Shown here: positions 17,476-42,279 of the stretch, one piece after another
How the letters are laid out: the number at the start of each line of letters is the position of its first letter
Numbering within the stretch: position 1 is the first letter of the stretch
From: Thiogranum sp.
GTDB lineage: Bacteria; Pseudomonadota; Gammaproteobacteria; DSM-19610
Length of the DNA stretch: 44,418 nucleotides
Reading direction: 5' to 3'
Assembly (NCBI GenBank): GCA_030148775.1
Contig: JASBST010000078.1
Location: 1 to 44,418, forward strand
Notes under the pieces: generated by a model
Databases searched by the model: none
What the model was told of the DNA's origin: nothing
Seen by the model: the letters and a program-made list of their open reading frames with translations, nothing else
Program-made: the position numbers and the translations under genes

Positions 17476-18597
17476 TCAGTTGAAATCCAGGGCCAGACCG
17501 AGCGCGCGGTCCAGTGCGGCCTCGGGCGTATAGAAATGGGGTGAAAGGCGCACGCCGCCGCCGCGTAGTGCGCAGACGACGCCCTGGTGTTGAAGATGTT
17601 GATACAAGGCTAGGGAATCGATGCCGGGGCGTGTGAAAGTGACGATGCCCGCGCGCCGTTCCGGCTGCGTTTCCGATAGAATGACGGCGCCGTTATCCTT
17701 CAGGTTATCAATTAAATAACCAACATTCCTTGAAATATTATCAAGTACGGTCGAGATCCCTGTTTCGAGCAGCAGGCTGAGACTGGCCCGCAACGCATGA
17801 ATGCCCAGCATATTGGGGCTGCCGCACTCGAACCGGCGCGCACTGTCTGCCGGCGCCCAGTCGCGGGCCTCGAAGTCGCCCATGGACGCCACCATGTGCC
17901 AACCGTACTGACGCAGTGTCAGCCGCGGCAGCCAATCGCGACGACAATAAAACAAAGCCAGTCCCTCCGGGCCCAACATCCATTTATGGCCGTCGGCCAT
18001 GACGAAGTCCGCGTGACACGCCTGCACGTCGAAGGGGCGGGCACCGATGCTTTGAATGGCGTCGACACAAAATGCGATGTCGCGCGCGCGACACGCCGTC
18101 CCCAGTGTCGGAAGATCGAGTGCGAGCCCGGAGCTGTACTGCACCGCGCTGACGGAAACCAGTCGCGTACGCGCGCTCATTGCCCCGATGATCGCGTCCT
18201 CGGCCCGGTCACGATCGCCGATGTCGGCTTCGATCACCCGTATCCCCAGGCCGCGCAGCGACTCCCAGACGATGCGGTTGGAAGGAAACTCCTCGTTGGT
18301 GATCACCACCTCGTCGCCGGCGTGCCAATCGAGCCCCCAGGCGACCACGGACAGGGCTTCGGAGGTACTCTTCAACAGGGCGATCTCGTCATCGCCGCGG
18401 GCGTTGACGAGCGTACGTAACTGGGCGCGCAGTTCCTGTTCCACGGCCAGCCAGTGGGGATAGTGGCGTGATCCCATGAAACCGTTTTCCTGCGCGAACG
18501 CCGCCACCGCGCGCACGGTCCGCTGTGGCCAGGGTGACACCGCGGCGTGGTTCAGGTAGCAGAGCCCCGCGTCCAGGGGAAACTCCGTGTCGTTCAT
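17476..18597 (-). CDS. Class V aminotransferase (PLP-dependent, cysteine-desulfurase fold)
   Basis: A 373-residue fold-type I PLP enzyme. The Schiff-base lysine is in MADGHKWMLGPEG, with the PLP-binding Asp in FCVDAIQS and phosphate-binding STSEAL near residue 90. The N-terminal YLNHAAVSPWP is typical of the isopenicillin-N-epimerase/cysteine-desulfurase-like branch. No conserved catalytic Cys loop of NifS/IscS is evident, so the reaction and substrate are unknown. ATG 18597 lies 8 bases after the gltA stop, so it is probably cotranscribed with citrate synthase. The frame can be read to 18708 but this would overlap gltA. Confidence 0.85.
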   Translation of the reverse strand: MNDTEFPLDAGLCYLNHAAVSPWPQRTVRAVAAFAQENGFMGSRHYPHWLAVEQELRAQLRTLVNARGDDEIALLKSTSEALSVVAWGLDWHAGDEVVITNEEFPSNRIVWESLRGLGIRVIEADIGDRDRAEDAIIGAMSARTRLVSVSAVQYSSGLALDLPTLGTACRARDIAFCVDAIQSIGARPFDVQACHADFVMADGHKWMLGPEGLALFYCRRDWLPRLTLRQYGWHMVASMGDFEARDWAPADSARRFECGSPNMLGIHALRASLSLLLETGISTVLDNISRNVGYLIDNLKDNGAVILSETQPERRAGIVTFTRPGIDSLALYQHLQHQGVVCALRGGGVRLSPHFYTPEAALDRALGLALDFN

Positions 18598-18605
18598 GGC
18601 GCGCG

Positions 18606-19901
18606 TCACCGTTCGTCGATTGCTACATAGTCGCGTTGGCCGGGGCCGACGTAGAGCTGCCGTGGGCGGCCGATGCGCTGATTGGTCTCGGCGATCATCT
18701 CCATCCACTGGGCCACCCAGCCAACGGTGCGGGCGATGGCAAACATCACGGTAAACATGTTGCGCGGTATACCCAGCGCCTTGTAGATGACGCCCGAATA
18801 AAAGTCCACGTTGGGATACAGATTACGTTCGACGAAATAGTCGTCCTGCAGTGCAATCTCCTCGAGACGCAAGGCGAGTTCAAAGGCGGGGTCGTCGGCG
18901 TCGCCCAGCTGTTCCAGTACCTGGTGGCACATGGCGCGAATGATACGCGCACGAGGATCGTAATTTTTATACACCCGATGACCGAAACCCATCAGTCGAA
19001 AGGGGTCGCTCTTATCCTTGGCGCGGGCCAGGAAAGCGGGAATATTCCTGCTGTCGCCGATATTCTCCAACATATCCAGCACCGCCTCGTTTGCACCACC
19101 GTGGGCCGGTCCCCATAGCGCGGCAATACCTGAAGCGATGCAGGCGAATGGGTTGGCGCCGGAACTGCCCGCCAGCCGTACTGTGGAAGTACTGGCGTTC
19201 TGCTCGTGATCGATATGCAATATAAAGATCAGATCCAACGCCTTTTCCGCGATCGGGTTGATCACATAAGGTTCGCAAGGAACCGAGAACATCATATTGA
19301 GCAGATTGCCGGTATAGCTGAGCCTGTTGTCGGGGTATACCTGCGGTTCGCCCACTGAGTGTTTATAGCAGGCCGCGGCGATGCTGGGCATCTTGGCGAT
19401 CAGGCGATGAGCGGCGATCTCGCGGTGCCGTTCGTTGCCGATATCCGTGGAGTCGTGATAAAAGGCCGACAAGGAGCCGACCACACCCACCATGATCGCC
19501 ATCGGATGGGCGTCGTGATAAAACCCGTGGTAGAAGCTCTTCAGGGCTTCGTTGAGCATGCTGTGGTGGGTGATGATGTCGTTGAACTCGTCGAGCTGGC
19601 GAGGCCGCGGAAGTTCGCCGTACAGCATGAGGTAGGCCACCTCGAGAAAATTGCTATGTTCGGCCAGTTGCTCGATGGGGTAACCCCGATATTGAAGAAT
19701 CCCCTGACCGCCGTCCAGATAGGTTAGGGCGCTGTTGCAGCTTGCGGTGGAGAGAAAACCCGGATCGTAGGTAAAATATCCGAGTTCGCGAAAAAAACGG
19801 CCGATGTCGATCGCATCTGGGCCTTGGGTAGCCGACAGTATCGGCAGTTCCACGCTGTGTCCGCTGCGATTATCGGTAATGGTGACAGTATCCTTGCTCA
19901 T
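18606..19901 (-). CDS. gltA: Citrate synthase
   Basis: Type II hexameric-style citrate synthase of 431 residues, condensing acetyl-CoA and oxaloacetate at the entry to the TCA cycle. Catalytic and binding segments are visible: [23 protein letters not shown] with catalytic His, and [14 protein letters not shown] with the second His. The N-terminal domain typical of the allosteric bacterial enzyme is present ([24 protein letters not shown]). The start has GGAG spaced 9 bases upstream. It lies between a phospholipase D gene and an aminotransferase, an unusual setting; sdh genes are not adjacent. Acetyl-CoA from the fad operon downstream would feed it. Confidence 0.97.
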
Positions 19902-21773: not shown

Positions 21774-24700
21774 TCATGCGCTACCCCCGTGGGCACGCCG
21801 CAGGCTTCTTTGTCGCCACAGGAGATAGGTCGCCGGGATGACCATCAGCGTAAGCCCGGTGGCGCTCAGCATGCCGCCTACCATCGGTGCGGCGATACGG
21901 CGCATGACCTCCGAACCGGTACCCTGTCCGAGCATGATGGGCAGCAGGCCGGCGATAATGGCGGCTACTGTCATCATGATGGGACGTACGCGCATTAACG
22001 CGCCCTCTATGATCGCAGCACGCAGGTGTTCGCGGTTCATCGGCCGATTTTCCGCCAGCGCAAGCTGGCGGTGGCGACGAAATGCCTGGTTGAGATAAAC
22101 CAGCATGACTACGCCAATTTCCACCGACACGCCGGCCAGGGCGATGAAGCCAACGCCTACCGCAACTGAGAGGTCGTAATGGAGCCAGAACAATAGCCAG
22201 ATGCCGCCGACCAGAGCCAGCGGCAGTGTGGCCAGAATGATCAATACCTCGGCCATGCGGCGGAAGTTCAGGTAAAGCAAGAGCACGATGATCGCCAGGG
22301 TCACGGGAATAACGGTGGAAAGCCGCTCCTTGGCGCGTTCCATGTATTCGTACTGGCCAGACCAGCTGAGCGAGTACCCTGCGGGCAGATCGACCTGCTC
22401 GGCGACCACTTGTTTGGCCTCCTTGACATATGACCCCAGATCGCGGTCCTGGATATCGATATAAATCCAGCCGTTAAGACGGGCATTTTCACTTTTGATC
22501 ATGCCGGGTCCGTCGACAATGCTGACTTTGGCGACATCGCCCAGGGCGATTTGCGCACCAACCGGTGTCTGGATAGGTAGCTCGGCGAGTTTGGCCTGGG
22601 AATCGCGCAGGGCCCGGGGGTAGCGCAGATTGACCGGATAGCGTTCCAGCCCCTCAATGCTCTCGGTCACATTCATACCGCCAACGGCGGTGCGGACGAT
22701 TTCCTGGACGTCGGCGATGTTCAGGCCATAGCGCGAAGCCGCGCCGCGGTCGATATCCACCAGCACGTAACGTCCGCCGACCACCCTTTCGGAAAATACC
22801 GAGACTGTGCCCCGCACCGGTTTCAACACCCGTTCGATGTCTTCGCCGATTTTCTGAATCACTTTCAGATCCGGGCCGGTGACCTTGACGCCGACGGGCG
22901 TCTTGATGCCGGTTGCCAGCATGTCGATGCGGTTTTTGATCGGCATGACCCATGCGTTACTCATGCCGGGGATCTGCACCAGCGCGTCGAGTTCGCGGCG
23001 CAGTTTGTCCGGGGTCATGCCTGCTCGCCACTGATCGCGCGGTTTCAACTGGATGGTGGTTTCGACCATGGTCAGCGGTGCCGGGTCGGTGGCGGATTCG
23101 GCACGCCCCATTTTGCCGAACACCCGCGCGACCTCTGGTACCGTCTTGATCAGCCGGTCGGTCTGTTGCAGGATCTGCTGTGCCTTGCCGATGGAAACCG
23201 CGGGAAAGGCGCTGGGCATATAGAGCAAATCGCCTTCGTCCAGATCGGGCATGAATTCCGATCCCAGGCTGCTTTGCAGGGGCCACCAGCCGGCGAGCGG
23301 CCACAGCATCGAGGCGGCGGTCAATGCCGATACCAGCAGCACCGTCTTAGGCGCGCGCAATATCCAGTTGATAAGCGGCCTGTAGAGCGCGATCAGCAGG
23401 CGGTTGAGCGGATTTTTATCCTCGGCGATGATTTTCCCGCGGATGAAATAGCCCATCAGCACGGGCACCAAGGTGATGGACAGACCGGCGGCGCCCGCCA
23501 TGGCGTAGGTCTTGGTAAAGGCCAGCGGCGAAAACAGGCGCCCCTCCTGGGCTTCCAGAGTAAACACCGGGAGGAAACTCAGGGTAATGATCAGCAACGA
23601 GAAAAACAGCGCCGGACCGACTTCGGCCGAGGCTTCAGCAATGATTTGCCATCGGTTTTTGCCGTCGACAGGATTGTGTTCCAGATGCTTGTGCACATTT
23701 TCTATCATGACGATGGCGGCGTCGACCATTGCGCCGATGGCGATGGCGATGCCGCCCAGCGACATGATATTCGCATTGATACCCTGGGCGTGCATGATGA
23801 TAAATGCCACCAATATGCCGACCGGCAGACTGATAATCACGACCAGTGCCGAGCGCATGTGAAACAAGAATACCGCGCACACCAGCACCACGACGATAAA
23901 CTCCTCGATCAGTTTTTCCTGCAGCGTATCGATGGCGCGCGTGATCAGGCCTGAACGATCGTACGTGGGCACTATCTCCACGCCGTCGGGCAGACTGCGG
24001 GAGAGCTCGGCAAGTTTTTCCTTGACGCCCTCGATCGTGCTCAGGGCGTTTTCACCCCAACGCATGATCACCACGCCGCCGACCACCTCCCCCTCGCCAT
24101 CGAGTTCAGCCAGGCCGCGACGCATCTGAGGCCCCACCCGCACTTCGGCGATGTCGCCCAGGACGATGGGTGTGCCGTTGGCATTGATGCCAATGGGTAT
24201 CTGCCGCAGTTGTTCAACGCCTTTGATATAGCCGGTGGCGCGTACCATATACTCCGCCTCGGCCATTTCGATGACCGAACCGCCGACTTCCTGATTGCCC
24301 TGCTGGATGGCGTTTTTGACTTTCGACAGCGGAATCCCATAGGCGCGCAGGCGGTCCGGGTCGACGACCACCTGGTACTGCTTGACCATGCCGCCGATGG
24401 TCGCCACTTCGGAGACGCCCTGCACCGTCTGCAACTCGAACTTCAGGAACCAGTCCTGCAAACTGCGGAGTTGGGAAATATCATGCTTGCCGCTGCGGTC
24501 GACCAGCGCGTACTCGTAGACCCAGCCGACTCCGGTCGCATCCGGGCCCAGCGCCGGCGTGGCGGCGGCCGGGAGGCGGCTCTGTACCTGACTGAGGTAC
24601 TCGAGCACCCGCGAGCGGGCCCAGTAGAGGTCGGTTCCGTCTTCGAACAGCACATAGACATAGGAGTCGCCGAAGAAGGAGTAGCCGCGCACCGTGGTCG

Positions 24701-24935
24701 CCTTGGGTACGGACAGCATGGTGGTGGTCAGCGGATAGGTTACCTGATCCTCCACTACCTGCGGGGCTTGTCCGGGGTAGCTGGTCTTAATGATCACCTG
24801 GACATCGGACAGATCGGGGATCGCGTCCAGGGGCGTATTTTTGATCGAATAAATGCCCCACCCGATGAGGATCGCCGTGAGCAGTAAAACCAGAAACCGG
24901 TTGTTGACCGACCAGCGAATGATCTCGGCAATCAT
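21774..24935 (-). CDS. cusA: CusA-type heavy-metal RND efflux pump (Cu/Ag)
   Basis: Inner-membrane RND transporter, 1053 residues, that uses the proton gradient to push Cu(I)/Ag(I) out through a tripartite channel. Twelve transmembrane segments are recognisable in the usual 1+5 and 1+5 pattern around two large periplasmic loops. The family signature [19 protein letters not shown] contains the proton-relay Asp in TM4. Met-rich stretches such as [11 protein letters not shown] match the copper-specific CusA branch rather than CzcA. The ATG overlaps the cusB-F stop by 4 bases. It is the last gene of the operon. Confidence 0.93.
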
Positions 24936-26383
24936 TGCCGTGTCTCCGCTTTATCCGCTTGCACAGAGTTGATGACATAGCGCTCATCGGCATCGCGCTC
25001 GAGCGTGAAGTGGACCGACTCGCCGGCTTTCAAGGCGGAAAGATCGACCGTTTCGGCGACAGGGAAGTCCATGGTCATTTGCGGCCAGCCGAGCGCCGCG
25101 ATCGGTTGATGGGTAAGATTCAGCTTGCGCTCGGTCGGAAAGACTTCGTTGATCACACCCGTACCCATGATAGCCTGGTCGCCCTGCGCCGGCTTCTTCG
25201 GGGTGTTGTTTTCCTCGGGCTCCATGCGGCTGAAACTTGCCCTCAGGCTGGCTTCGGAGTCGATCAGGAACTGCGCGGAGGTCACGACCCGGTCGCCTTC
25301 CCTGACACCGGATTTGATCTCGACAAAATCGCCGCTCTCCATACCGGCGCTGACCTGCACCGCTTTGAATTTTCCGTCGCCCAGATCGAGCACCACCCGA
25401 TCGCCGTTGCCCGTTCTGATCAACGCCTCGCGCGGAATGCTGAGAACGTTCTTTTTCGGCCCGGCGAATATATGGACTTTGGCGTACATGTCCGGCTTGA
25501 GCGTTTCGTCGGGATTGTCGAATACCAGCCTGGCCTGCAGGGTGCGCGTTTTGGGATCGATGGTAGGGTAGACGAACTCCACCTTACCCTCCCAGACGCG
25601 ACCGGGAAGATAGCCGAGTTCGACTTCGGCGGGTTGCCCGGGCGCCACCCATTCGGACTGACGTTCGAAGATGTCCACTAATAGCCACACGCTGGACAGA
25701 TCGGCCAGCGCCATGACTTCGGTCGCCGGCTTCACGTACATGCCTTCGCGCACGTTCAGGCTGTCGACGATGCCGTCCTGACTGGCGTGCACACGAACGC
25801 GCTGTGCCGCGCGACGCTTGCGGGTGATCTCGCGGATCTGCTCCCGGCTGATACCCAGCGCGACCAGGCGGTCGTGCGAGGCGTTCTTCAAATGGGTGTT
25901 TCCGGCGCGCAGCGCCTGTATGTATTCTTCCTGTGCATTGACGAGGTCCGGTGAATACAGCTCGAACAGAATGTCGCCTTTACGCACCCGTTCGCCATTG
26001 GATTTCACATACAGTTTTTCCACCCAGCCATCGGTGCGCAAATGCAGATGACTGATTTTGCGTTCGTCAAAGGCGACGTAACCGACGGTGCTGATGCGCC
26101 GCCAGAGCGGTCCGCGCTCGACCCGAGCGGAACGCACGCCCAGATTCTGGACCATGGCGGGATCGATACGGACCACGTCGGCATCGCCGCCGGCCTGGTC
26201 CGCGTACACGGGTACAAGGTCCATTCCCATGGGCGATTTTCCGGGCTTGTCGCGGCGATAGTTGGGATCCATCGGCGCGACCCAGTAAAGAATCTCGGGT
26301 TCTTCGGCGGCATGTGCGACGCCGGGCAGATGGCTTAGTGCCTGGAGGAAGAGGATCAGCAGCACGGAGCGACGGACGTTCAT
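24932..26383 (-). CDS. CusB-like RND adaptor fused to a C-terminal CusF copper-binding domain
   Basis: Periplasmic membrane-fusion protein of 483 residues. Signal peptide 1-25; N-terminal metal-binding segment (about 31-62) with Met-containing [10 protein letters not shown] and [13 protein letters not shown], as in CusB; then hairpin, lipoyl, beta-barrel and membrane-proximal domains to about 395. From about 406 the protein becomes a CusF-like domain: H425, W433, M436 and M438 are spaced exactly as CusF H36, W44, M47 and M49. The fusion would place the copper chaperone permanently on the adaptor. ATG overlaps the stop of the outer-membrane gene by 4 bases. Confidence 0.92.
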
Positions 26384-27687
26384 GGTTTTTCTCCCAACTC
26401 GGGCCAGGAGGTGGCAGCCGATTGCGGTAATAAATAGAGAAGGCGGGCGCGGGTCTTCTCCCGGTCTATACGGATGCGCAGATCCTGCAGGCGAATCTCC
26501 AATTCGGTGATGCGTGCCCGCATCAAGGTGTTGAACTCGTTGATGCCACTCTGATAGGCATTGACGGCCGCCTCGGCGTTGGCGGTCGCTTCGCGCAACA
26601 GCTGGCTGCTATAGAGATCGGCCTGTTGACCCAGTCTGTCCCACTGCGCATATTGCGCCGCCAGCGAACGTTGCAGTTCGCGCAAAACCGTCTCCCGTGT
26701 CTGCAAGGCGGCGCCGGCCATCTGCTGACTTGCCGCCAGCTGCCTGTCCTGGCGCTTGTCGGTAAACAGGGGAATATCCATGGTGATCATGGCGGTGGCC
26801 ATGTCGGGTCGGTCGCGTCCGTTGTCGAACTCGCCGAAGCGCTTGTTGTAGTCGAGCCCGAGGTCGAAGCCGGGTTTGTATTGTTCGCGCGCCATATTGA
26901 CTTCCTGCTGCGTGGCCTCGACGCGCGCGCTGGCCGCGCGGACCGCCGGATGTTCGGGTAACGCAGCCAGCAGCCTGGCCTGGGAAGGAAGAGCGGGCAG
27001 TCGCGGCAGGCCCGGCGACAGGGGCTGCCACGCAGCGGCGCCAATCCAGCGCGAGAGCACGGCGCGCTGGACATCGCCCTGCTTTTGAATCTGGGTGCTC
27101 TTGTCGTCCAGGCGCGAGACTTCCAGTTGAGCCTGCAGGACGTCCTGCTGGCTGACACGTCCGGAGGCATAGTGCGCACGTGTTATCTCGACGAGTTGTT
27201 AGAACAGGCCGCGGGTTTTGGCAGCAATAGCGTCAGCCTGCTCCTGATAATACAACTCCAGAAACGCTTCACGGACATCCCGTTGTATGGTTTTTACGGT
27301 GTTCTGTACCAGTGCGCTTTCGGCGCTGCTCAGCCACTGTGTGCGTTTCTGTTTGTAAAACAGGCTGCGGCCGCGGGGAAAGGACTGGCGTATACCGGCG
27401 ACCGCCTGCGACATCCCTTCGCGTTTCATGCTGAAATCATCGAGCGGAACATTTCGCAGGCTGAGGAATAGCTTCTGATCCGGCAGCTGGCCGTCGGCCA
27501 CCGCCTGCTCGTCGAGCGCCTGGGCGCGAGCCTGGCCGGCGAGCACCGCCGGGTCCGCCTGCAGTGCCAGTTGCTCGGCGGTTTCCAGTGTCAGGGCGGC
27601 GTGAACCGCCGCATAGGGGGCGAGGCCTGCAATCAGACAGGCGACATGCCACGTACGCCGCACGGCGGACGAAGAAAAATACATCAT
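26380..27687 (-). pseudogene. CusC/TolC-like outer-membrane efflux protein interrupted by an in-frame TAA
   Basis: Outer-membrane channel component of the Cus system. Signal peptide 1-30, then coiled-coil outer-membrane-efflux-protein repeats. Codon 163 (27199-27201) is TAA, yet the same frame continues without change to the real end at 26380: QLVEITRAHYASGRVSQQDVL directly follows and is typical TolC-family helix. Total length would be 435 codons, normal for the family. CAA or GAA would restore the gene by one base change. TAA rules out selenocysteine or pyrrolysine recoding. An ATG-start part-length frame at 27060 is unlikely to give a working channel. It overlaps cusB-F by 4 bases. Confidence 0.88.
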
Positions 27688-34234: not shown

Positions 34235-35614
34235 TCAGAACAATCCGGCGTTGAGCCACAGATGCACCCAGATGCTGGCGCCATAGCCCGCCGCCACCGC
34301 CGGCGCCCACTTGAGATGGCCGAAAAAGGTGTAACGACCGTGAGCCTGGCCCATCAGCGCCACGCCCGCCGCCGAGCCGATGGACAACAGCGAACCGCCG
34401 ACACCGGCGGTCAGCGTCACTAACAGCCACTGCCCGGTCGACATATCGGGCTGCATCGACAATACCGCGAACATCACCGGAATATTGTCAATGACCGAGG
34501 ACATCAGACCGATACTGATATTGGCATAGGTCGCGCCCCAGTCCGTGTACAGGAGTTGCGAGACTATCGACAGGTAACCAAGAAATCCCAGGCCGCCGAC
34601 GCACATTACCACGCCGTAGAAAAACAGCAACGTGTCCCACTCGGCGTTGGCGATACTGCGGAACACGTCGAAAGCCGCCACATCGCCGACATGCCCGTTA
34701 CCGTGGCGCTGATGATGCTTTTGCAGATAAAAGCCGAACAATTGCAGATAACCCAGACCCGTGAGCATTCCGATAACCGGCGGCAGATCGAGAAAGTTGT
34801 GAAAGGCCACCGCGGTGAAGATGGTGGCGAGAAAGAGACCCACGATGACCAGTCCGCCGGGACGCAACCGCACGCGCTCGGTATCGCCCGCCGGTGCCAG
34901 CCGGGGTATCGCTAGGTGCATCAACAGTGCGGGAACCAGAAAATTGACCAACGCGGGGACAAACAGGTCGAAGAACTGCCAGAATTCGACCACGCCTTTT
35001 TGCCACACCATCAGGGTGGTGATATCACCAAAAGGACTGAAGGCGCCGCCCGCGTTGGCGGCGACGACGATATTGATGCAGGCCAGCAACACGAAACGAT
35101 GGTTGTCGCCCGCCACCGCCAGGACCACCGCGCACATGAGCAAAGCGGTGGTGAGATTGTCCGCGATGGGCGAGATGAAAAACGCCAGGAATCCGGTCAA
35201 CCAGAACAGGGCGCGGAAACTATAACCTTTGCGGATCAGCCAGGCGCGCAGGGCGTCGAACACCCGTCGTTCCTGCATGGAATTGATATAGGTCATCGCG
35301 ACCAGAAGGAACAGTAGCAGCTCGGCATATTCCAGCAGATCGTGACGGACCGCGGCCTCGGCGGCTCCGGGGAAACCCTGGTTATGATAGACCCAGGCGA
35401 TCAGCGCCCAGATCATGCCGGCGGCGAGAATGACCGGTTTGGACTTGCGCAGGCCGGTGAATTCTTCGGTGATCACCAGGACATAGGCGAGCACAAAAAC
35501 CGCCAACGCCGTGTAGCCGGACCAATGATCGGTCAGCGGCAGGGCGCCGGGGGAGGCGGCCAGGGCGATGAACGGAAAAGCCAATAAAACGACGAGAAGA
35601 AAGATAATACGCAC
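34235..35614 (-). CDS. nhaD: NhaD-type Na+/H+ antiporter
   Basis: Inner-membrane sodium/proton antiporter of the Ion Transporter superfamily, 459 residues from the chosen start. The NhaD hallmarks are present: SPIADNLTTALLMCAVVLAVAGD and GGAFSPFGDITTLMVWQ, plus a second repeat ending with MSSVIDNIPVMFAV. There is an N-terminal hydrophobic, signal-like segment ending in ALAASPG. GTG 35614 is preferred as start because the longer frame begins with a TTG at 35650 and adds 12 residues of poor character; neither has a strong ribosome-binding site. It would expel Na+ brought in by Na+-coupled carriers such as the SLC13 protein next to it. Confidence 0.9.
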   Translation of the reverse strand: MRIIFLLVVLLAFPFIALAASPGALPLTDHWSGYTALAVFVLAYVLVITEEFTGLRKSKPVILAAGMIWALIAWVYHNQGFPGAAEAAVRHDLLEYAELLLFLLVAMTYINSMQERRVFDALRAWLIRKGYSFRALFWLTGFLAFFISPIADNLTTALLMCAVVLAVAGDNHRFVLLACINIVVAANAGGAFSPFGDITTLMVWQKGVVEFWQFFDLFVPALVNFLVPALLMHLAIPRLAPAGDTERVRLRPGGLVIVGLFLATIFTAVAFHNFLDLPPVIGMLTGLGYLQLFGFYLQKHHQRHGNGHVGDVAAFDVFRSIANAEWDTLLFFYGVVMCVGGLGFLGYLSIVSQLLYTDWGATYANISIGLMSSVIDNIPVMFAVLSMQPDMSTGQWLLVTLTAGVGGSLLSIGSAAGVALMGQAHGRYTFFGHLKWAPAVAAGYGASIWVHLWLNAGLF

Positions 35615-35756
35615 GAGATAACCGCTTCGGTGTCCGCTGACATGCCACAATGCCCGGCGCCATACTAGCTAAAAGCGTCGACGCTGAACAGACCGTTACA
35701 GCATCGACCCGATAACGTATCATGGCGGCGTGGAACCAGCGAGGAGACCGAAGTCG

Positions 35757-36158: not shown

Positions 36159-36986
36159 TCAGGAGAATGGATGTGAAATTTTCGTTGCTGTCGTGGCCGA
36201 TGGATGCCACGACTGTTCGTAGACATTCCAGCCGATCTTGATTGCCGTGGCGAATATCACAATGGCGAGAATCCGGCGTAACACGGTGCGCGGTGTCCGT
36301 TGACTGAGAATACTGCCCAGTTGTGCGCCGATTATGACGCCAACTACCAGAATAATGGACCACTGCCAGGGTATCTGGCCGCTGCCCAGGCGCCCCAGCA
36401 GCACGGCACCGGAAGACAGAATCCCCACGGCCAGTGCACTGCCGATGCTGATGCGTGTCGGTATATGCAGCAGATAGAGCATCGCCGGAATATAAAGAAA
36501 TGCGCCACCCTGACCGATCACCCCCGCCGCGGCGCCGATGATGCAACCGATTGCCACCGCCAGCGGCACGTTGACGCTGACTTCCGTCAACTGGGCTTCC
36601 CGCGCCGCTTCACGTTTCGGTAACAGCATCAGCAGGGACGCCGCCAACGCCATGATGGCGAAAACCAGCAGCATAAGATGTTCGGAGACGTAGACCGACA
36701 GCCGTGAGCCGATGAAGCTGGCGACCGTCATCGGCAGCCCGAGCGCGGCCACCAAAGGCCAATGGATGCGTTTGAAACGCTGGTGACCGAAAGCGCCGGA
36801 CAAGGTGCCGGCGAAACTCTGTACCGTCGTCATACCCGCCACCACTTTCATGCCCAGGGGTGCGAAACCCAGCACCGGCGGGATATAAAGTAACAGCGGC
36901 ACCATCACGATGCCGCCGCCAATACCCAGGAGTCCGGACAGCCCGCCGCCGAGCAGCCCGAGGACGAACAACAGCGTTTCGAACAT
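36159..36986 (-). CDS. TSUP (TauE/SafE) family membrane transporter
   Basis: A 275-residue membrane protein with eight predicted helices. Two repeated glycine-rich motifs define the family: LLGIGGGIVMVPLLL near residue 20 and GAAAGVIGQGGAFLYIPAML in the second half. Members export sulfite, sulfonates or other small anions. It starts 2 bases after the selD stop, so it is very likely cotranscribed and may serve sulfur or selenium oxyanion traffic; the substrate is inference only. Confidence 0.85.
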   Translation of the reverse strand: MFETLLFVLGLLGGGLSGLLGIGGGIVMVPLLLYIPPVLGFAPLGMKVVAGMTTVQSFAGTLSGAFGHQRFKRIHWPLVAALGLPMTVASFIGSRLSVYVSEHLMLLVFAIMALAASLLMLLPKREAAREAQLTEVSVNVPLAVAIGCIIGAAAGVIGQGGAFLYIPAMLYLLHIPTRISIGSALAVGILSSGAVLLGRLGSGQIPWQWSIILVVGVIIGAQLGSILSQRTPRTVLRRILAIVIFATAIKIGWNVYEQSWHPSATTATKISHPFS

Positions 36987-36988
36987 TT

Positions 36989-38107
36989 CTAACGGAACAG
37001 AACGCGTTCCTGGTAGTCGCCGTCCTCGTCCAGCACCTCGCCGATCACGGTGGCTTGTTCGCAGCCGAATTCGTGCAGTCGCTGCAGAATATCGTCGGTC
37101 GCTGCCGCCGCGACCGTGATCAGGAGGCCGCCATTGGTCTGCGGATCCGTGTAGATGAGCTGACGGTCGATATCCCAGTCGTCTCCGAATGACAGCCGGC
37201 TGTCGTAAGCTTCCATATTGCGATAAGCGCCACCCGGAAAGACGCCTTCGCGGGCCAGTTCCTCGGCCGCCGCGTACATGGGCACCTTGGCGGAGTGGAC
37301 CAGCATGCGCAGGCGCGCGCCCTCGGCCATTTCTACCAGATGGCCGCCGAGACCAAAGCCGGTGATATCGGTCAGCGCATGCACTTCGGGCAGGTCGCCG
37401 AGCCAGGCGCCGGCGGTATTCACTTCGGTCAGTGCATCGATGAATATCTGGTACTCACTTTCGCGCAGCTGATCGATACGATAGGCACTGGCCATGACGC
37501 CGATGCCCAGCGGCTTGGTGAGAATGATTTTATCTCCCGGCCGTGAGGCGGCATTGGTCTTTATTTTCTTCGGGTGTACCGTGCCGACCACCGCCAGTCC
37601 AAAGATCGGCTGCGGATTTTCAATGGTGTGCCCGCCGGCCAGGGGTACCCCCGCGCGGGTACAGACGTCGACCCCGCCACGCATGATTTCCTGCAGCTTT
37701 TCCGTATCGACTTCGTTGACCGGAAAGCCGGCGATCGCCGTGGCTATGATCGGTGTTCCGCCCATGGCATACACATCGCTCAGTGCATTGGCGGCCGACG
37801 CACAGCCGAAAATATAAGGGTCGTCCACCAGCGGCGTTTGAAAATCGTTGGTGAAGACCAGCGCCTGCTCGTCGTTCAGTTGATAGACGGCGGCGTCGTC
37901 GCTGTTTTCAACGCCGACCAGCAGTCTGGGATGCGGGGAGAGGGTGGGGACCCGCTCCAGGATGCGCTTTAGCTCCGCCGGCTCGACCTTGCAGCCGCAA
38001 CCGCCGCCATGGGCGAAACCTGTCAGTCGGCGTGCCTGGCGTTGAGGTACGGAGGGCACAAGCTCGCTCTGGAGCGCCGTTTGGAAGGCGCCAAGTTGTG
38101 ATTCCAT
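36989..38107 (-). CDS. selD: Selenide, water dikinase (selenophosphate synthase)
   Basis: Makes selenophosphate from selenide and ATP, the selenium donor for selenocysteine and 2-selenouridine. In 372 residues the N-terminal active-site motif HGGGCGCK gives C37 and K40, matching Cys17 and Lys20 of E. coli SelD; the codon for position 37 is TGC, so this is the Cys, not Sec, form. Other motifs: NSDDAAVYQL, AMGGTP, LAGGHTIE, TDITGFGLGGHL and TDPQTNGGLL. ATG 38107 fits the ribosome-binding site GGGGAG 8 bases upstream better than the GTG at 38113. No selA, selB or mnmH (selU) is in this window. Confidence 0.95.
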   Translation of the reverse strand: MESQLGAFQTALQSELVPSVPQRQARRLTGFAHGGGCGCKVEPAELKRILERVPTLSPHPRLLVGVENSDDAAVYQLNDEQALVFTNDFQTPLVDDPYIFGCASAANALSDVYAMGGTPIIATAIAGFPVNEVDTEKLQEIMRGGVDVCTRAGVPLAGGHTIENPQPIFGLAVVGTVHPKKIKTNAASRPGDKIILTKPLGIGVMASAYRIDQLRESEYQIFIDALTEVNTAGAWLGDLPEVHALTDITGFGLGGHLVEMAEGARLRMLVHSAKVPMYAAAEELAREGVFPGGAYRNMEAYDSRLSFGDDWDIDRQLIYTDPQTNGGLLITVAAAATDDILQRLHEFGCEQATVIGEVLDEDGDYQERVLFR

Positions 38108-38188
38108 AAACACTTCTCCCCAAATTCTAATTATGAAACGGCCTGCCGCGATGCCTTGCAGTAGCGGGAATAGTCCGTGGAAAGTGTT

Positions 38189-38218
38189 TCTATATCACAG
38201 AATTAGTTCTTTAATCAA
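38189..38218 (-). promoter_or_regulatory. Candidate sigma-70 promoter of selD
   Basis: Minus strand TTGATT (38213-38218) and TATAGA (38189-38194), spacer 18. It lies in the 154-base AT-richer gap between the GGDEF-EAL stop and selD, about 80 bases upstream of the start, suggesting selD has its own promoter. Confidence 0.45.
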
Positions 38219-38261
38219 GAAAAGTGGTGAAATGGTGTCACAAAATGGTAACAAAATTGTA

Positions 38262-40967
38262 TTAATGGACCGTCATATTGCCGGCGCGTTGGGACACCCC
38301 CGCCGTCGACAACGATGCCAGTTTCCACTTCGCCTGATGCACCCATTCGACGAAGCGTGCTGCGGGCAGCGGTCGGGAAATATAATAGCCTTGGGCGATG
38401 TCACAACCCATCATGCGCAGCTCGTTCAGGGAGGCTTCGCTTTCGACCCCATCGGCGATCGCGCCCAGGCAGATGCCGTGCGCCAGGTCGATGGTCGACT
38501 GCACGATGACATGGTCGTTGGCGTCGTTATCCATTTCCATGACGAAGGATTTGTCGATTTTCAGGCTGCGCACCGGAAACTTCTTCAGGTAGGCGAGGGA
38601 GGAAAAGCCGGTGCCGAAGTCGTCCACCGACAGCGCGTGCCCCATGCCGGCGAGCTGCGACAGGGTGGCGATGGTGCGCTCGGGGTCGGACATCATGGCG
38701 CTTTCGGTGATCTCGAATTCCAGATGACGCGGCGTACGATACCAGCGTTCGGCTTCTTTCGCGACGTAGGCGGCGAAATTCGGGTCCTGAAGATCCCAGA
38801 TGCTGAGATTGACAGAAATCGGCAAATCGATCTGCAACCGCGTCGACCAGTGATGCGAGGTCTGTAACGCCTGGCGAATCACCCAGCGTGTCAGCGGTCG
38901 GATAAGGCCGGTTTTTTCCGCCAGCTTGATCAGTTCTTCGACATTCACCTGGCCGAATTCCGGATCCTGCCAACGCAGCAGCGCCTCGGCGCCGACAATG
39001 CGCTCGCGGCGCAGATCGATTTTGGGCTGGAAGTACAACTCCAGGGCGTCACGATCGATGGCCAGTCGCAGCCGCGTCTCCAGTTCCAGCGAGCGCATGG
39101 TATTGGCATCCTGCTCCGCGGAGTACATGGAAATACCGCCGGTTTCTTTTTTGGCGTCGTACATTGCCACGTCGGCGTGTTGTAACAACGCTTCGGCGTT
39201 GTCGCCGTGTTCCGGGTAGACCGCGATACCGATACTGCCACTGATAATGAGATGGTTTTCGTTGACATTAAAATAGCGTTTCATGGCGATGCCGACTTTT
39301 TTTGCCACATGGCCGGCCTGGGTCGCATCGATACAGGGTAGTAGCAGGGCGAACTCGTCGCCGCCGAGACGGCAGACCGTGTCGGTTTCGCGCAGCACCG
39401 CGACCAGACGCTTGCCGACCAGTTGGATCAGTTTGTCGCCAGTGCTATGACCCAGGGTGTCGTTGATCTGTTTGAAGCGGTCCAGATCGATCATCAGCAG
39501 GGCGAACGATTCGTCGCGGCGCTGGCTGCTTATGATGGTCTGGGTCAGACGATCGAACAACAGCGACCGGTTGGGCAGATCCGTGAGCGGGTCGTGCAGC
39601 GCGCGGTAGCGGATTTCTTCCTGTTGCTGGTGGATATGCGACGAGTCGGTCACCGAGCCGGCCATGCGGATCATGTTCCCGCTGTTGTCGCGCAGCGCCT
39701 TGCCGCGCAGCCGGATCCAACGTTCTCCCTCGTGCGTGTGGATGCGGAATTCGGTATCCAGATAGGTTTCCGAGGAATTTTCGCGGAAAAGCGCAAAACT
39801 GTGTTGGAACGGCGCGGCGTCGGACGGCAGCATGATGCCTTCGAGCAGGGCGATGAGATCGCTGGCCTCCTGTGTGATGCCCAGCAGATGGCAGGTACGC
39901 TGCGCCAGATAAAGCTCGCGTCCGGCGATATCCCAGTCCCAGATGCCGTCGTTGGTGCCCGAAACGGCCAGGGTGAATCGGGCCTGCTGAGCGCGGCGCT
40001 CACGCTCCAGCCGGCGGGTCTTGATATGGAGAATACTGAGCAGAATGAACAGCGCCACGATCAGACCGAGGAACAACGTCAGGTAGAACATCCGCTGTTT
40101 CTGCCGCGCCACTTCGCGATGTGCCTGGGCGACCTGCAGCCCCGGATCCAGGTGCGCGGCGGCGGTGAAAATACGTGTCTTGTACGTGTCCAGGCCGAAT
40201 TCTTCGATATAGTTCTGCGTGTCGTTGCTGATCAGGAAGTCGAGAAACTGCTGCGCCAGGCGCGCATTGGTGCCCTGTATCCGCGCCGGATTGACGACGA
40301 TGTAGTTGTAGAAATTCTGCAGCGCCTTGTGATCGCGATACAGTGGACTGATGGTCTCGGAAATCTTGCTGCGCAGCGAGAAATAGGTGCCTAGATCGGC
40401 AAAGGCATAGGCGCTGAACTGGGCGGCCGCCAGCACCGTAGTGCGCGAACTTGACTGCATCGACTGGTATCCCAGCCAACCGGGAGCGACGTTCGCGACC
40501 TTGAGCAATTCGGCCAGGCGCTGATAGGTGCCGGACTGCGTGCCCTGGACGAAGAAATCGACCTGATTGTCCGAAAGCGTTTGAAAGACTTTTGCCAGCT
40601 CATCCTCGCCGGAAATCCCCAATGGGTCGTCCTTCGGACCAAGAATCGCGAATTGGTTGTACATGATCAGCGTGCGCGACAGGCCCAGTCCGTCGTCCAT
40701 GAACAGACGCTCGCTGGCGGGATGATGAGTCAGCACGGCGTCGGCCTTGCCCTGACGCGCGCGCGTCAGCGCCGACACGGCGCCGACCGAGGTGATTTCG
40801 ACCTGGTGTGCTGGATAGCGCTCGTGAAACCGTTTGGCCAGCGCCGAGATTAGACCCTGTTCATTGGCGGTTGAAGCGATTGAAAGCCTGAGCGTGTCGG
40901 CGTGCAGCTCGCCACTCAGAAGCATCAGCAGAAATATGTGAAAAAGCGCCGCAGCCTGTCTACGCAT
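38262..40967 (-). CDS. Receptor c-di-GMP enzyme: TupA/WtpA-like binding domain, TM, PAS, GGDEF, EAL
   Basis: A 901-residue inner-membrane protein that could make or break c-di-GMP. Signal peptide 1-23; periplasmic binding-protein domain 24-290 resembling tungstate/molybdate-binding TupA (IASTANEQGLISAL, MYNQFAILGPKDDP, VQGTQSGTYQRL, NPARIQGTNARL); transmembrane helix 293-313; PAS about 330-445; GGDEF about 455-620 with intact GGDEF (535-539) and I-site RETD (526-529) at the correct 5-residue distance; EAL about 640-890 with E661, N720, E752, D782, D783, K803 and Q859. The conserved AEGVE Glu is Asp839 (ADGVES). Start uncertain: ATG 40967 gives the neatest signal peptide; 40982 and 41018 are alternatives. 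Confidence 0.88.
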   Translation of the reverse strand: MRRQAAALFHIFLLMLLSGELHADTLRLSIASTANEQGLISALAKRFHERYPAHQVEITSVGAVSALTRARQGKADAVLTHHPASERLFMDDGLGLSRTLIMYNQFAILGPKDDPLGISGEDELAKVFQTLSDNQVDFFVQGTQSGTYQRLAELLKVANVAPGWLGYQSMQSSSRTTVLAAAQFSAYAFADLGTYFSLRSKISETISPLYRDHKALQNFYNYIVVNPARIQGTNARLAQQFLDFLISNDTQNYIEEFGLDTYKTRIFTAAAHLDPGLQVAQAHREVARQKQRMFYLTLFLGLIVALFILLSILHIKTRRLERERRAQQARFTLAVSGTNDGIWDWDIAGRELYLAQRTCHLLGITQEASDLIALLEGIMLPSDAAPFQHSFALFRENSSETYLDTEFRIHTHEGERWIRLRGKALRDNSGNMIRMAGSVTDSSHIHQQQEEIRYRALHDPLTDLPNRSLLFDRLTQTIISSQRRDESFALLMIDLDRFKQINDTLGHSTGDKLIQLVGKRLVAVLRETDTVCRLGGDEFALLLPCIDATQAGHVAKKVGIAMKRYFNVNENHLIISGSIGIAVYPEHGDNAEALLQHADVAMYDAKKETGGISMYSAEQDANTMRSLELETRLRLAIDRDALELYFQPKIDLRRERIVGAEALLRWQDPEFGQVNVEELIKLAEKTGLIRPLTRWVIRQALQTSHHWSTRLQIDLPISVNLSIWDLQDPNFAAYVAKEAERWYRTPRHLEFEITESAMMSDPERTIATLSQLAGMGHALSVDDFGTGFSSLAYLKKFPVRSLKIDKSFVMEMDNDANDHVIVQSTIDLAHGICLGAIADGVESEASLNELRMMGCDIAQGYYISRPLPAARFVEWVHQAKWKLASLSTAGVSQRAGNMTVH

Positions 40968-41122
40968 TTGCGTCCCGCACATTTTTTGGGCCTGAGGGGT
41001 GTGCAAACCAGCAGGCAACTAATTGGGTATATGCTTGATGTACGTCATCGGCAGCCTGCGGGAAATACTTAGACAAAAGGTATTGAACGTATAGGAACTT
41101 TATCCTACATAGATGCGTATAA

Positions 41123-41152
41123 TGTATATTATGTTAAATAATATATTGTCAG
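41123..41152 (-). promoter_or_regulatory. Candidate promoter of the GGDEF-EAL gene
   Basis: Minus strand CTGACA (41147-41152) and TATACA (41123-41128), spacer 18, inside an AT-rich patch (41100-41150). The remaining 286-base gap between the epimerase stop and this gene holds no supportable gene or terminator. Confidence 0.4.
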
Positions 41153-41253
41153 GAAAGCCGCTGCCTGAGTCGGGATCCAACTGTGGCGAATCGATCCAGA
41201 GCTTTACCGTTTGTATTTCTAGGCAGGTTTTTCCTGGTGACGTGAAACAGCCG

Positions 41254-42279
41254 TCATAACTGTTGTAACCGTGGCCAGGGAAAACCTTCGCTGGCCAGAT
41301 CAGACAGGTGTTCGTCGACGGCGGTTTCCCAGGATTTTTGCGGAACATATCCCAGTTTTTCCCGAGCATAAGTGTTGGGACACAGCCAGTCTTCACACAA
41401 ATGCACAATGGAACGCGTTAAAAACGGAGAACTGCCCGGCAGCGACGGATGGAGGGTTTCCATCAACCAGCCGAAGGCATAGCCAGCGGGATACGGAACG
41501 CTGTATAGCGGTTCGGGGACGCCGGCGCGTTGTGCGATGTAGCTCACCACCTCGCGTAATGTGGGAAAGGATGGCCCGCAGATGTTGAAAGATTCGTAGT
41601 CGTCCAATTCGCCGGCAAGGACGGTGCTTCTGAAGGCCGCACCGAGATCGGTGTCGGCCACCAGCGGCAAATGTTTACGGCCGCCTCCCAGCCAAGGCAC
41701 CAGGTAGGTCTGCAGACGTGGCACAAGCGCGGGCACCAGTCCCAGGCGATTGCCCCGGCCGACGAAATGCCCCAGTCTGAGTGTGACCATTTGGGTGCCG
41801 CGGTGCGATTGGGCCTGCATCTCGTCGTCGAGGTCGACGAGGTAATCGAGGTGTGGCCAGAATCCCGTGTGGGCCTTCGCACAGCGGTCGTCGTGCGTTT
41901 GTCCCTTTGAGTTCACCGAGCCGATAGCCACGCTGCTGGCCATGATGAAGCGTTGCACTCCTTGGTCAATGGCCTGCTCGATGAGATCTGTGGTCGGCCT
42001 GTAGAAACGTTCATATTCCTGCTTCCGATGACCCCACATCGACGCGCCGGTGCCCGCATGGCAGACGACATCCACGTCGCGCATCAGCGCCTGACGATAG
42101 TCGGCATCGAGCAGATCCCCGACACGGACTTCGTCAGCGAGCCCCTGCTTCAGCATGCGCGGATCGCGGCAGGCTGCGATGATCGTCACGCCGGGGTCTT
42201 GGGCCAGGGACTCGAGAATGTTTCCGCCGAGGAAACCGGTCGCGCCGGTAATGAGAACACGTGTGTCAGGTCGGGCCAT
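41254..42279 (-). CDS. NAD-dependent epimerase/dehydratase (extended SDR)
   Basis: A 341-residue extended short-chain dehydrogenase/reductase. The Rossmann glycine motif is VLITGATGFLGGNI at residues 6-19; VGDLLDAD is the acidic cofactor segment; the usual catalytic YxxxK is replaced in position by a HLDYLVDLD stretch, with no obvious YxxxK, and FIMASSVAIGS supplies the Ser region. This resembles sugar-nucleotide or steroid/ flavonol-type SDRs with altered active sites; the substrate is unknown. ATG 42279 has GGGAGA 9 bases upstream; the longer frame to 42378 only reads through the operator region. Divergent from a tetR gene, which probably controls it. Confidence 0.8.
   Translation of the reverse strand: MARPDTRVLITGATGFLGGNILESLAQDPGVTIIAACRDPRMLKQGLADEVRVGDLLDADYRQALMRDVDVVCHAGTGASMWGHRKQEYERFYRPTTDLIEQAIDQGVQRFIMASSVAIGSVNSKGQTHDDRCAKAHTGFWPHLDYLVDLDDEMQAQSHRGTQMVTLRLGHFVGRGNRLGLVPALVPRLQTYLVPWLGGGRKHLPLVADTDLGAAFRSTVLAGELDDYESFNICGPSFPTLREVVSYIAQRAGVPEPLYSVPYPAGYAFGWLMETLHPSLPGSSPFLTRSIVHLCEDWLCPNTYAREKLGYVPQKSWETAVDEHLSDLASEGFPWPRLQQL

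Follow-up and report, generated by a model that had tools for sequence, protein, structure and literature searches.

A TupA-like Venus-flytrap domain with an altered cleft on a predicted c-di-GMP receptor-enzyme of Thiogranum, encoded beside selD and a TSUP permease

Here we describe a gene on the minus strand of a 44,418-nucleotide stretch of Thiogranum sp. DNA (contig JASBST010000078.1, positions 1 to 44,418; hereafter the window) that encodes a predicted receptor-enzyme of cyclic di-GMP (c-di-GMP) signalling, referred to below as the sensor. Its N-terminal domain is homologous to the binding protein TupA and is followed by a transmembrane (TM) stretch and by PAS, GGDEF and EAL domains; the arginine with which TupA grips tungstate (Arg118) is lost across all sensors compared, and the gene stands in a conserved neighbourhood with selD and a TSUP permease. 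We tentatively favour the explanation that this is a re-specified Venus-flytrap receptor-enzyme whose ligand, judging by its neighbours, is most likely selenium or a closely related sulfur species.

The sensor gene and its domains are as follows:
38262..40967, minus strand: sensor gene, 901 amino acids from ATG, in the order TupA-like domain, TM, PAS, GGDEF, EAL
40191..40895, minus strand: TupA-like domain (residues ~25-259), from domain and structure matches, presumably periplasmic
40008..40097, minus strand: transmembrane stretch (residues ~291-320), from strong hydrophobicity
39654..39914, minus strand: PAS domain, from Pfam
39144..39602, minus strand: GGDEF domain, motif RLGGDEF preceded by RETD (RxxD)
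38370..39074, minus strand: EAL domain, with the motifs EALLRW, EITES, DDFGTG and KIDKSF

Counted from a TTG, the open frame around the gene is 918 amino acids long. Pfam finds PBP_like_2 at residues 25-248 (1.1e-23), PAS_3 at 352-438 (6.9e-07), GGDEF at 456-608 (2.6e-48) and EAL at 632-866 (8.8e-69), which together with hydrophobicity bears out the order of TM, PAS, GGDEF and EAL that a first-pass annotation of the window had read behind the binding domain. A second, weak hydrophobic stretch covers residues 5-23. The full-length structure model is poor (pLDDT 59.6, pTM 0.37) and was used solely for a single helix at residues 279-335, which spans the TM region with low confidence. The GGDEF active-site motif and the RxxD motif are both present (RETDTVCRLGGDEF). 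In the EAL domain the window reads DGVE, and all 12 relatives compared (13 sequences in total) read EG(V/I)E, the Glu of which we take to be catalytic; the DGVE may reflect a weakened phosphodiesterase or an assembly error. The GGDEF domain, and the EAL domain in most of its motifs, resemble active enzymes.

The resemblance of the N-terminal domain to TupA, rather than to the usual sensory folds, is far beyond chance. Residues 14-261 match the NCBIfam TupA model NF041772 (4e-32, 111.6 bits), a score that misses the equivalog cut-off of 400 bits, and a sequence search for solved structures ranks 3muq, 5my5, 3lr1 and 3kn3 first (4.3e-31 to 4.7e-21), all classed as TupA (PMC5517513). A Foldseek search with a domain model of moderate quality (AlphaFold2 from six sequences; pLDDT 64.5, pTM 0.62) has the same four structures in its top six rows (E 1.9e-14 to 3.2e-12), although the query TM-scores reach no more than 0.44-0.52. 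A PstS structure appears in the sequence search only at 0.06. The TupA-like character claimed by the first-pass annotation is therefore supported by family model, sequence and fold alike, and its proposed comparison with TupA and PstS came out in favour of TupA. Identity to TupA over the domain is ~30%, and the sensor domain is probably a descendant of TupA or a sharer of a common ancestor.

In a tree of 70 domains, a branch supported at 100/100 sets all 17 sensors apart, and a long branch leads to them from TupA. These 17 sensor rows represent 16 genomes, including four closely related ones of Thiogranum, and are not 17 independent events; their domain identity to the window sensor ranges from 27 to 95%. 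The output is GGDEF-EAL in the window and G112, GGDEF only in G327, and a histidine kinase in G150 and G817, while in the remaining sensors of the 13-sequence motif comparison GGDEF and EAL were recognised by motif. In G798b and G797 the GGDEF motifs are altered (SGGDSF, LGGDTY) and RxxD is missing.

Fused sensors are rare. The closest named records are three Thiogranum metagenome-assembled genomes (MAGs; 77-95% domain identity) and one gammaproteobacterial MAG (53%), and a scan of named genomes gave 157 pattern matches and five confirmed loci, namely the four relatives used here and one distant actinobacterial TupA. Within the window genome itself (111 contigs, rated 86.7% complete), the fused protein is the only match of the domain query at E<=0.01. 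Fused members were recognised in G000, G112, G327 and G150 among 369 genomes of the class, 96 of which have a match, together with a truncated candidate in G171; these are the fused members among the matching rows read, which include the non-sensor frames of at least 378 amino acids. At the level of the phylum (398 genomes), only G000 has a frame longer than 310 amino acids among the 12 genomes with a match at E<=1e-42, and in the order of G327 a sensor is found in 8/57 genomes.

None of the non-sensor long-frame matches (L038, L045, L054, L057 and 11 more) carries a signalling output. In two of them, L038 (G252) and L128 (G137), the TupA-type binding protein, with Arg118 kept, apparently continues into an ABC permease on the same chain (frames of 528 and 514 amino acids); in the others the extra open frame is merely upstream of TupA. 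Four loci (L018-L021, in G007, G006, G003 and G001) hold a TupA with intact TTTS and Arg118 adjoining what reads as the ATPase of an ABC transporter, and all but one of them also have an apparent FdhD-like gene nearby.

The ligand site of TupA includes T9-T11, S12, H59, R118, T124 and D170 (PMC5517513). We aligned the 17 sensor rows with 52 transport-type rows, 5my5 among them; the transport-type rows include the non-sensors L038, L045, L054 and L057 with open frames of at least 378 amino acids, and two rows were left out before counting, L028 (a distant TupA, Arg present) and L042 (from G171, truncated and sensor-like, with Pro at position 118). The corresponding positions of the window are:
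40869..40880, minus strand: I30-A31-S32-T33, in place of the TTTS of TupA, by alignment
40725..40727, minus strand: H81, equivalent to TupA H59; His kept in 16/17 sensor rows and 52/52 transport-type rows
40545..40547, minus strand: Q141, equivalent to TupA R118; Arg in 0/17 sensor rows and 52/52 transport-type rows
40527..40529, minus strand: T147, equivalent to TupA T124; Thr kept in 16/17 sensor rows and 52/52 transport-type rows
40395..40397, minus strand: D191, equivalent to TupA D170; Asp kept in 16/17 sensor rows and 52/52 transport-type rows
40335..40337, minus strand: R211; Arg in 16/17 sensor rows and 1/52 TupA rows, which mostly have Glu or Gln there

At position 118 the sensors have Pro (9), Gln (5), Ala (2) or Ser (1), whereas a further set of 11 long-frame TupA matches, one near-identical pair included, keeps Arg118 throughout when read by eye. 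The same division holds for D120 and E128 (each in 52/52 transport-type rows vs 0/17 sensors) and for R171 (50/52 vs 0/17), and P208 (17/17) and W164 (16/17) are further hallmarks of the sensors. Since the equivalents of H59, T124 and D170, as well as R211, are each present in 16 of the 17 rows and R118 in none, the cleft seems to be under constraint, yet changed; on this comparison of residues we regard it as retained but re-specified with respect to TupA. The first-pass annotation had proposed a link from tungstate, molybdate or another oxyanion to c-di-GMP should the oxyanion pocket be kept, and had named loss of the pocket residues as grounds for giving the idea up. The outcome is mixed: H59, T124 and D170 stand, R118 and the TTTS do not, and the tungstate/molybdate form of the pocket thus fails in part. 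We reject a retained tungstate/molybdate pocket in those terms, which leaves room for weak tungstate binding or for a different oxyanion. The re-specified cleft counts against a receptor of the TupA type for tungstate and molybdate; the identity of the ligand does not follow from it.

Next to the sensor, the window holds the two genes that form the other half of our argument:
36989..38113, minus strand: selD, Cys form (GGCGCK), TIGR00476 at 376 bits against a cut-off of 125
36159..36986, minus strand: TSUP (TauE/SafE) permease, 2 bases after selD

The Cys and Lys of GGCGCK are presumably the catalytic residues of SelD. Sensor, selD and TSUP follow each other on the same strand, with an SDR-type gene on the other side of the sensor, and gene clustering of 17 loci recovered this order in eight (five in the genus, three in the order of G327). 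When the window SelD was searched against 72 genomes (covering 45/57 genomes of the G327 order), a close subtype of at least 53% identity was found in nine (G000, G001, G003, G005, G012, G788, G803, G804 and G805), and in 9/9 loci with this subtype, belonging to two orders, sensor, selD and TSUP are consecutive on one strand. The selD/TSUP pair reported by the first-pass annotation is thus present and conserved as well. Within the genus, sensor and close selD are confined to the same 5/17 genomes (Fisher 1.6e-4, kinship uncorrected), and in the order of G327 the close selD occurs in 4/8 sensor genomes vs 0/37 others searched (Fisher 4.7e-4, kinship uncorrected). The linked SelDs cluster as one group (93/94 support, under the star threshold), apart from SelDs adjoining selA, and neither a sensor nor a TSUP relative was found in the 4-kb loci of the other SelDs (35-44% identical).

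The neighbourhood extends further in the other order, where a thioredoxin-like gene comes next after TSUP in all four loci. Thioredoxin-like and propeller-like genes lie downstream of TSUP in three of these loci and upstream of the sensor in L025, which suggests a cluster of the same genes, re-arranged. In L096 (3436-5193) and L025 (1166-2841) the thioredoxin-like protein has an apparent signal peptide and the motif CGFC, which reads CGYC in L025, and stands beside the propeller-like protein. In L095, L096 and L097 (G804, G803 and G805) the sensor is sandwiched between a chemotaxis gene set and the selD-TSUP-thioredoxin-like-propeller genes; the set of L096 comprises a CheA-type kinase, an MCP, CheD and CheB by Pfam, and CheW- and CheR-like genes by sequence. 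The chemotaxis genes hint that the cue of the sensor may feed motility as well.

Two further roles for the sensor were considered and rejected. The presence of TupA is not associated with that of the sensor, either in the genus (2/5 sensor genomes vs 2/12 others, p 0.54) or in the order of G327 (2/8 vs 7/49, p 0.60), and we therefore rejected a link of the sensor with tungsten uptake. SelA was found in 4/30 genomes searched, with no match in eight of the nine sensor-selD genomes; single misses mean little because these nine genomes are listed as 71-99% complete. The only one of the nine with SelA is G805, where it lies near a second selD on a different contig, and a part in the selenocysteine pathway was accordingly rejected for the sensor. 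The SelDs of G800, G802 and G815 (the 44% copy) and the second SelD of G805 lie ~2 kb from selA. At six loci (L118-L123; G811, G813, G814, G327, G805:C22 and G815:C140) a SelD-like domain occupies the C-terminal side of frames of 733-792 residues, which by their sequence are possibly oxidoreductase/SelD fusions.

Because the tungstate-gripping arginine is replaced and selD adjoins, a selenium or sulfur species is a better guess for the ligand than tungstate. The sensor would be an inner-membrane receptor-enzyme with a two-lobed Venus-flytrap in the periplasm, the lobes of which would close on a small ligand, with selenite, selenate and sulfite as candidates; R211, a new Arg, would precede the second lobe crossing by a few residues. 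Closure would shift the single TM helix and its long continuation, and the movement would be relayed through the PAS domain to set the balance between GGDEF (synthesis) and EAL (hydrolysis). The TSUP permease may move the ligand and SelD may activate selenide. We also speculate, with considerable doubt, that sensor, selD and TSUP form a selenocysteine-independent cassette for selenium sensing and acquisition, in which the TupA-derived flytrap would have become a receptor for a selenium oxyanion that sets c-di-GMP, TSUP would carry selenium as selenite and the SelD subtype would be dedicated to the cassette.

Several observations weigh against reading the sensor through its selD neighbour. Eight of the 17 sensor rows are in genomes in which a close selD was not found (G112, G150, G817, G786, G797, G798 with two copies, and G327, where the only SelD-like stretch is 35% identical and lies inside a 748-amino-acid frame), which implies that the sensor does not need this selD. 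Mapped on the sensor tree, linkage to selD takes four changes, of which well-supported branches force two or more, and a single clade of selD-linked sensors was rejected for this reason; nor do the cleft residues compared set linked sensors apart from unlinked ones. In the eight loci where the gap was measured, ~100-400 bases separate sensor and selD, and in the window the gap holds one more feature:
38189..38218, minus strand: promoter-like block, TTGATT-18-TATAGA by eye, conserved in four Thiogranum genomes

This block was not listed by an automatic promoter scan, and the promoter and terminator scan of 38000-41300 was close to shuffled-sequence level. Nevertheless, its conservation suggests that selD-TSUP may own a separate promoter and, given the gap, sensor and selD may not be co-transcribed. 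Adjacency speaks for an association of the genes and is no evidence that the ligand is selenium, and many of the genomes compared are incomplete MAGs.

The same observations lend themselves to a different explanation, in which the ligand is no oxyanion but a small organic acid, an amino acid or a cation, and the selD neighbourhood is inherited and functionally meaningless. The loss of R118 and R171 removes positive charge in or near the cleft, and both the eight rows that do without a close selD and the possible separate promoter are in keeping with it; a neighbourhood conserved over two orders, in which the same genes recur re-arranged, and the newly conserved R211 are not, and we hold this explanation to be somewhat unlikely.

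Further down the scale is a receptor still for tungstate, or less probably molybdate, tuned to weaker binding by Gln in place of Arg118 so that its affinity falls in a sensing range. The R118Q variant of Desulfovibrio alaskensis TupA still binds tungstate, at 90 nM instead of 6.3 pM, but no longer binds molybdate (PMC5517513), and the sensors do keep H59, T124 and D170. However, R118, D120 and R171 are jointly absent in 17/17 sensor rows, Pro outnumbers Gln at residue 118, the TTTS is altered too, TupA and sensor show no association as given above, and none of the neighbour genes scanned in the window, L096 and L094 was named as molybdenum or tungsten transport. We consider a tungstate receptor quite unlikely. 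A separate periplasmic binding protein docks in the NspS-MbaA system, and the sensor domain might likewise have become a docking or structural module with no small ligand any more, which would suit its long branch from TupA and the lost Arg important for TupA ligands, but this is the least probable of the alternatives, as equivalents of H59, T124 and D170, needless in a dead cleft, persist in 16/17 rows each over 27-95% identity.

The first-pass annotation had pointed to SulP and SLC13 carriers nearby, and genes for SulP and SLC13/DASS-type carriers are indeed in the window, but they are not conserved neighbours: among the 17 clustered loci, the SulP of the window has a relative in L094 alone, close to the histidine kinase of G150, and the DASS-type carrier has one in L025 alone. 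The carrier-like gene at 34238-35650 encodes an NhaD antiporter. A SufS-like class-V aminotransferase (17479-18708; 139.7 bits, cut-off 475.1), ~18 kb from selD, is a possible cysteine desulfurase, an enzyme type able to supply selenium too. Near the contig end (43042-44286) lies the C-terminal part of a SoxB-like protein (122.6 bits; SoxB cut-off 550); the host probably oxidises sulfur. A metal efflux set of the Cus type comprises an RND pump (21777-24935), a CusF-domain adaptor (24935-26383) and, within 26383-27687, an outer-membrane part apparently in two pieces (26383-27060 and 27202-27687), the second of which clusters with a single 439-residue gene in L105. No RNA elements over the gathering score were found in the window.

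Compared with known systems, the sensor shares with the TupA of TupABC (5my5, 3lr1; NF041772) its fold, the ~30% identity and the three kept cleft residues, and differs by the absence of R118, TTTS and R171, by the sub-cut-off score, by fusion to TM-PAS-GGDEF-EAL and by the absence of TupB and TupC beside it in the window neighbourhood. A periplasmic binding protein (PBP) fold, a TM stretch and a c-di-GMP output domain all stand on one sensor chain, and the sensor has an EAL domain in common with RmcA. RmcA and CdgH likewise join a periplasmic Venus-flytrap, TM and cytosolic GGDEF on one chain (PMC8846402; PMC5431781). The domain of RmcA is an SBP_bac_3 sensing arginine (PMC8846402) and the PBPb domains of CdgH come in tandem and bind amino acids (PMC5431781), whereas that of our sensor is of the PBP_like_2/TupA type. 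PBP-clan domains on c-di-GMP enzymes are thus of a known kind; the clan is common in c-di-GMP proteins and, according to a 2022 review, only SBP_bac_3 had been studied there (PMC8846402). In Pseudomonas aeruginosa tellurite raises c-di-GMP through SadC and SiaD (PMC4438720), which is only a loose parallel. Among the matches listed in our literature search, no title names a tungstate, molybdate or selenium receptor for c-di-GMP, or a clade that derives from TupA, has a remodelled site and adjoins selD and TSUP.

Genomic context has been used before in selenium biology: YedE, YedF, DUF3343 and LysR_Se were proposed as candidate selenium genes from the context of known ones such as selD (PMC5322559). 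We draw on the context of selD in the same way for sensor and TSUP; unlike those four, TauE, sulfite exporter, GGDEF and EAL go unmentioned in the main text of that paper. A 2026 review states that a specific high-affinity selenium transport system has not been identified in prokaryotes (PMC13188914).

Based on our findings, we suggest that these sensors offer a domain and a neighbourhood for asking what a TupA-type flytrap senses on behalf of c-di-GMP, and that the same neighbourhood bears on whether TSUP and receptor handle selenium. They also provide a natural comparison for TupA, as nature has replaced the same Arg as the laboratory mutant. If the sensor, selD and TSUP do act as a selenium cassette, the sensor would be a dedicated bacterial selenium receptor, and a trace element would thereby be linked with c-di-GMP.

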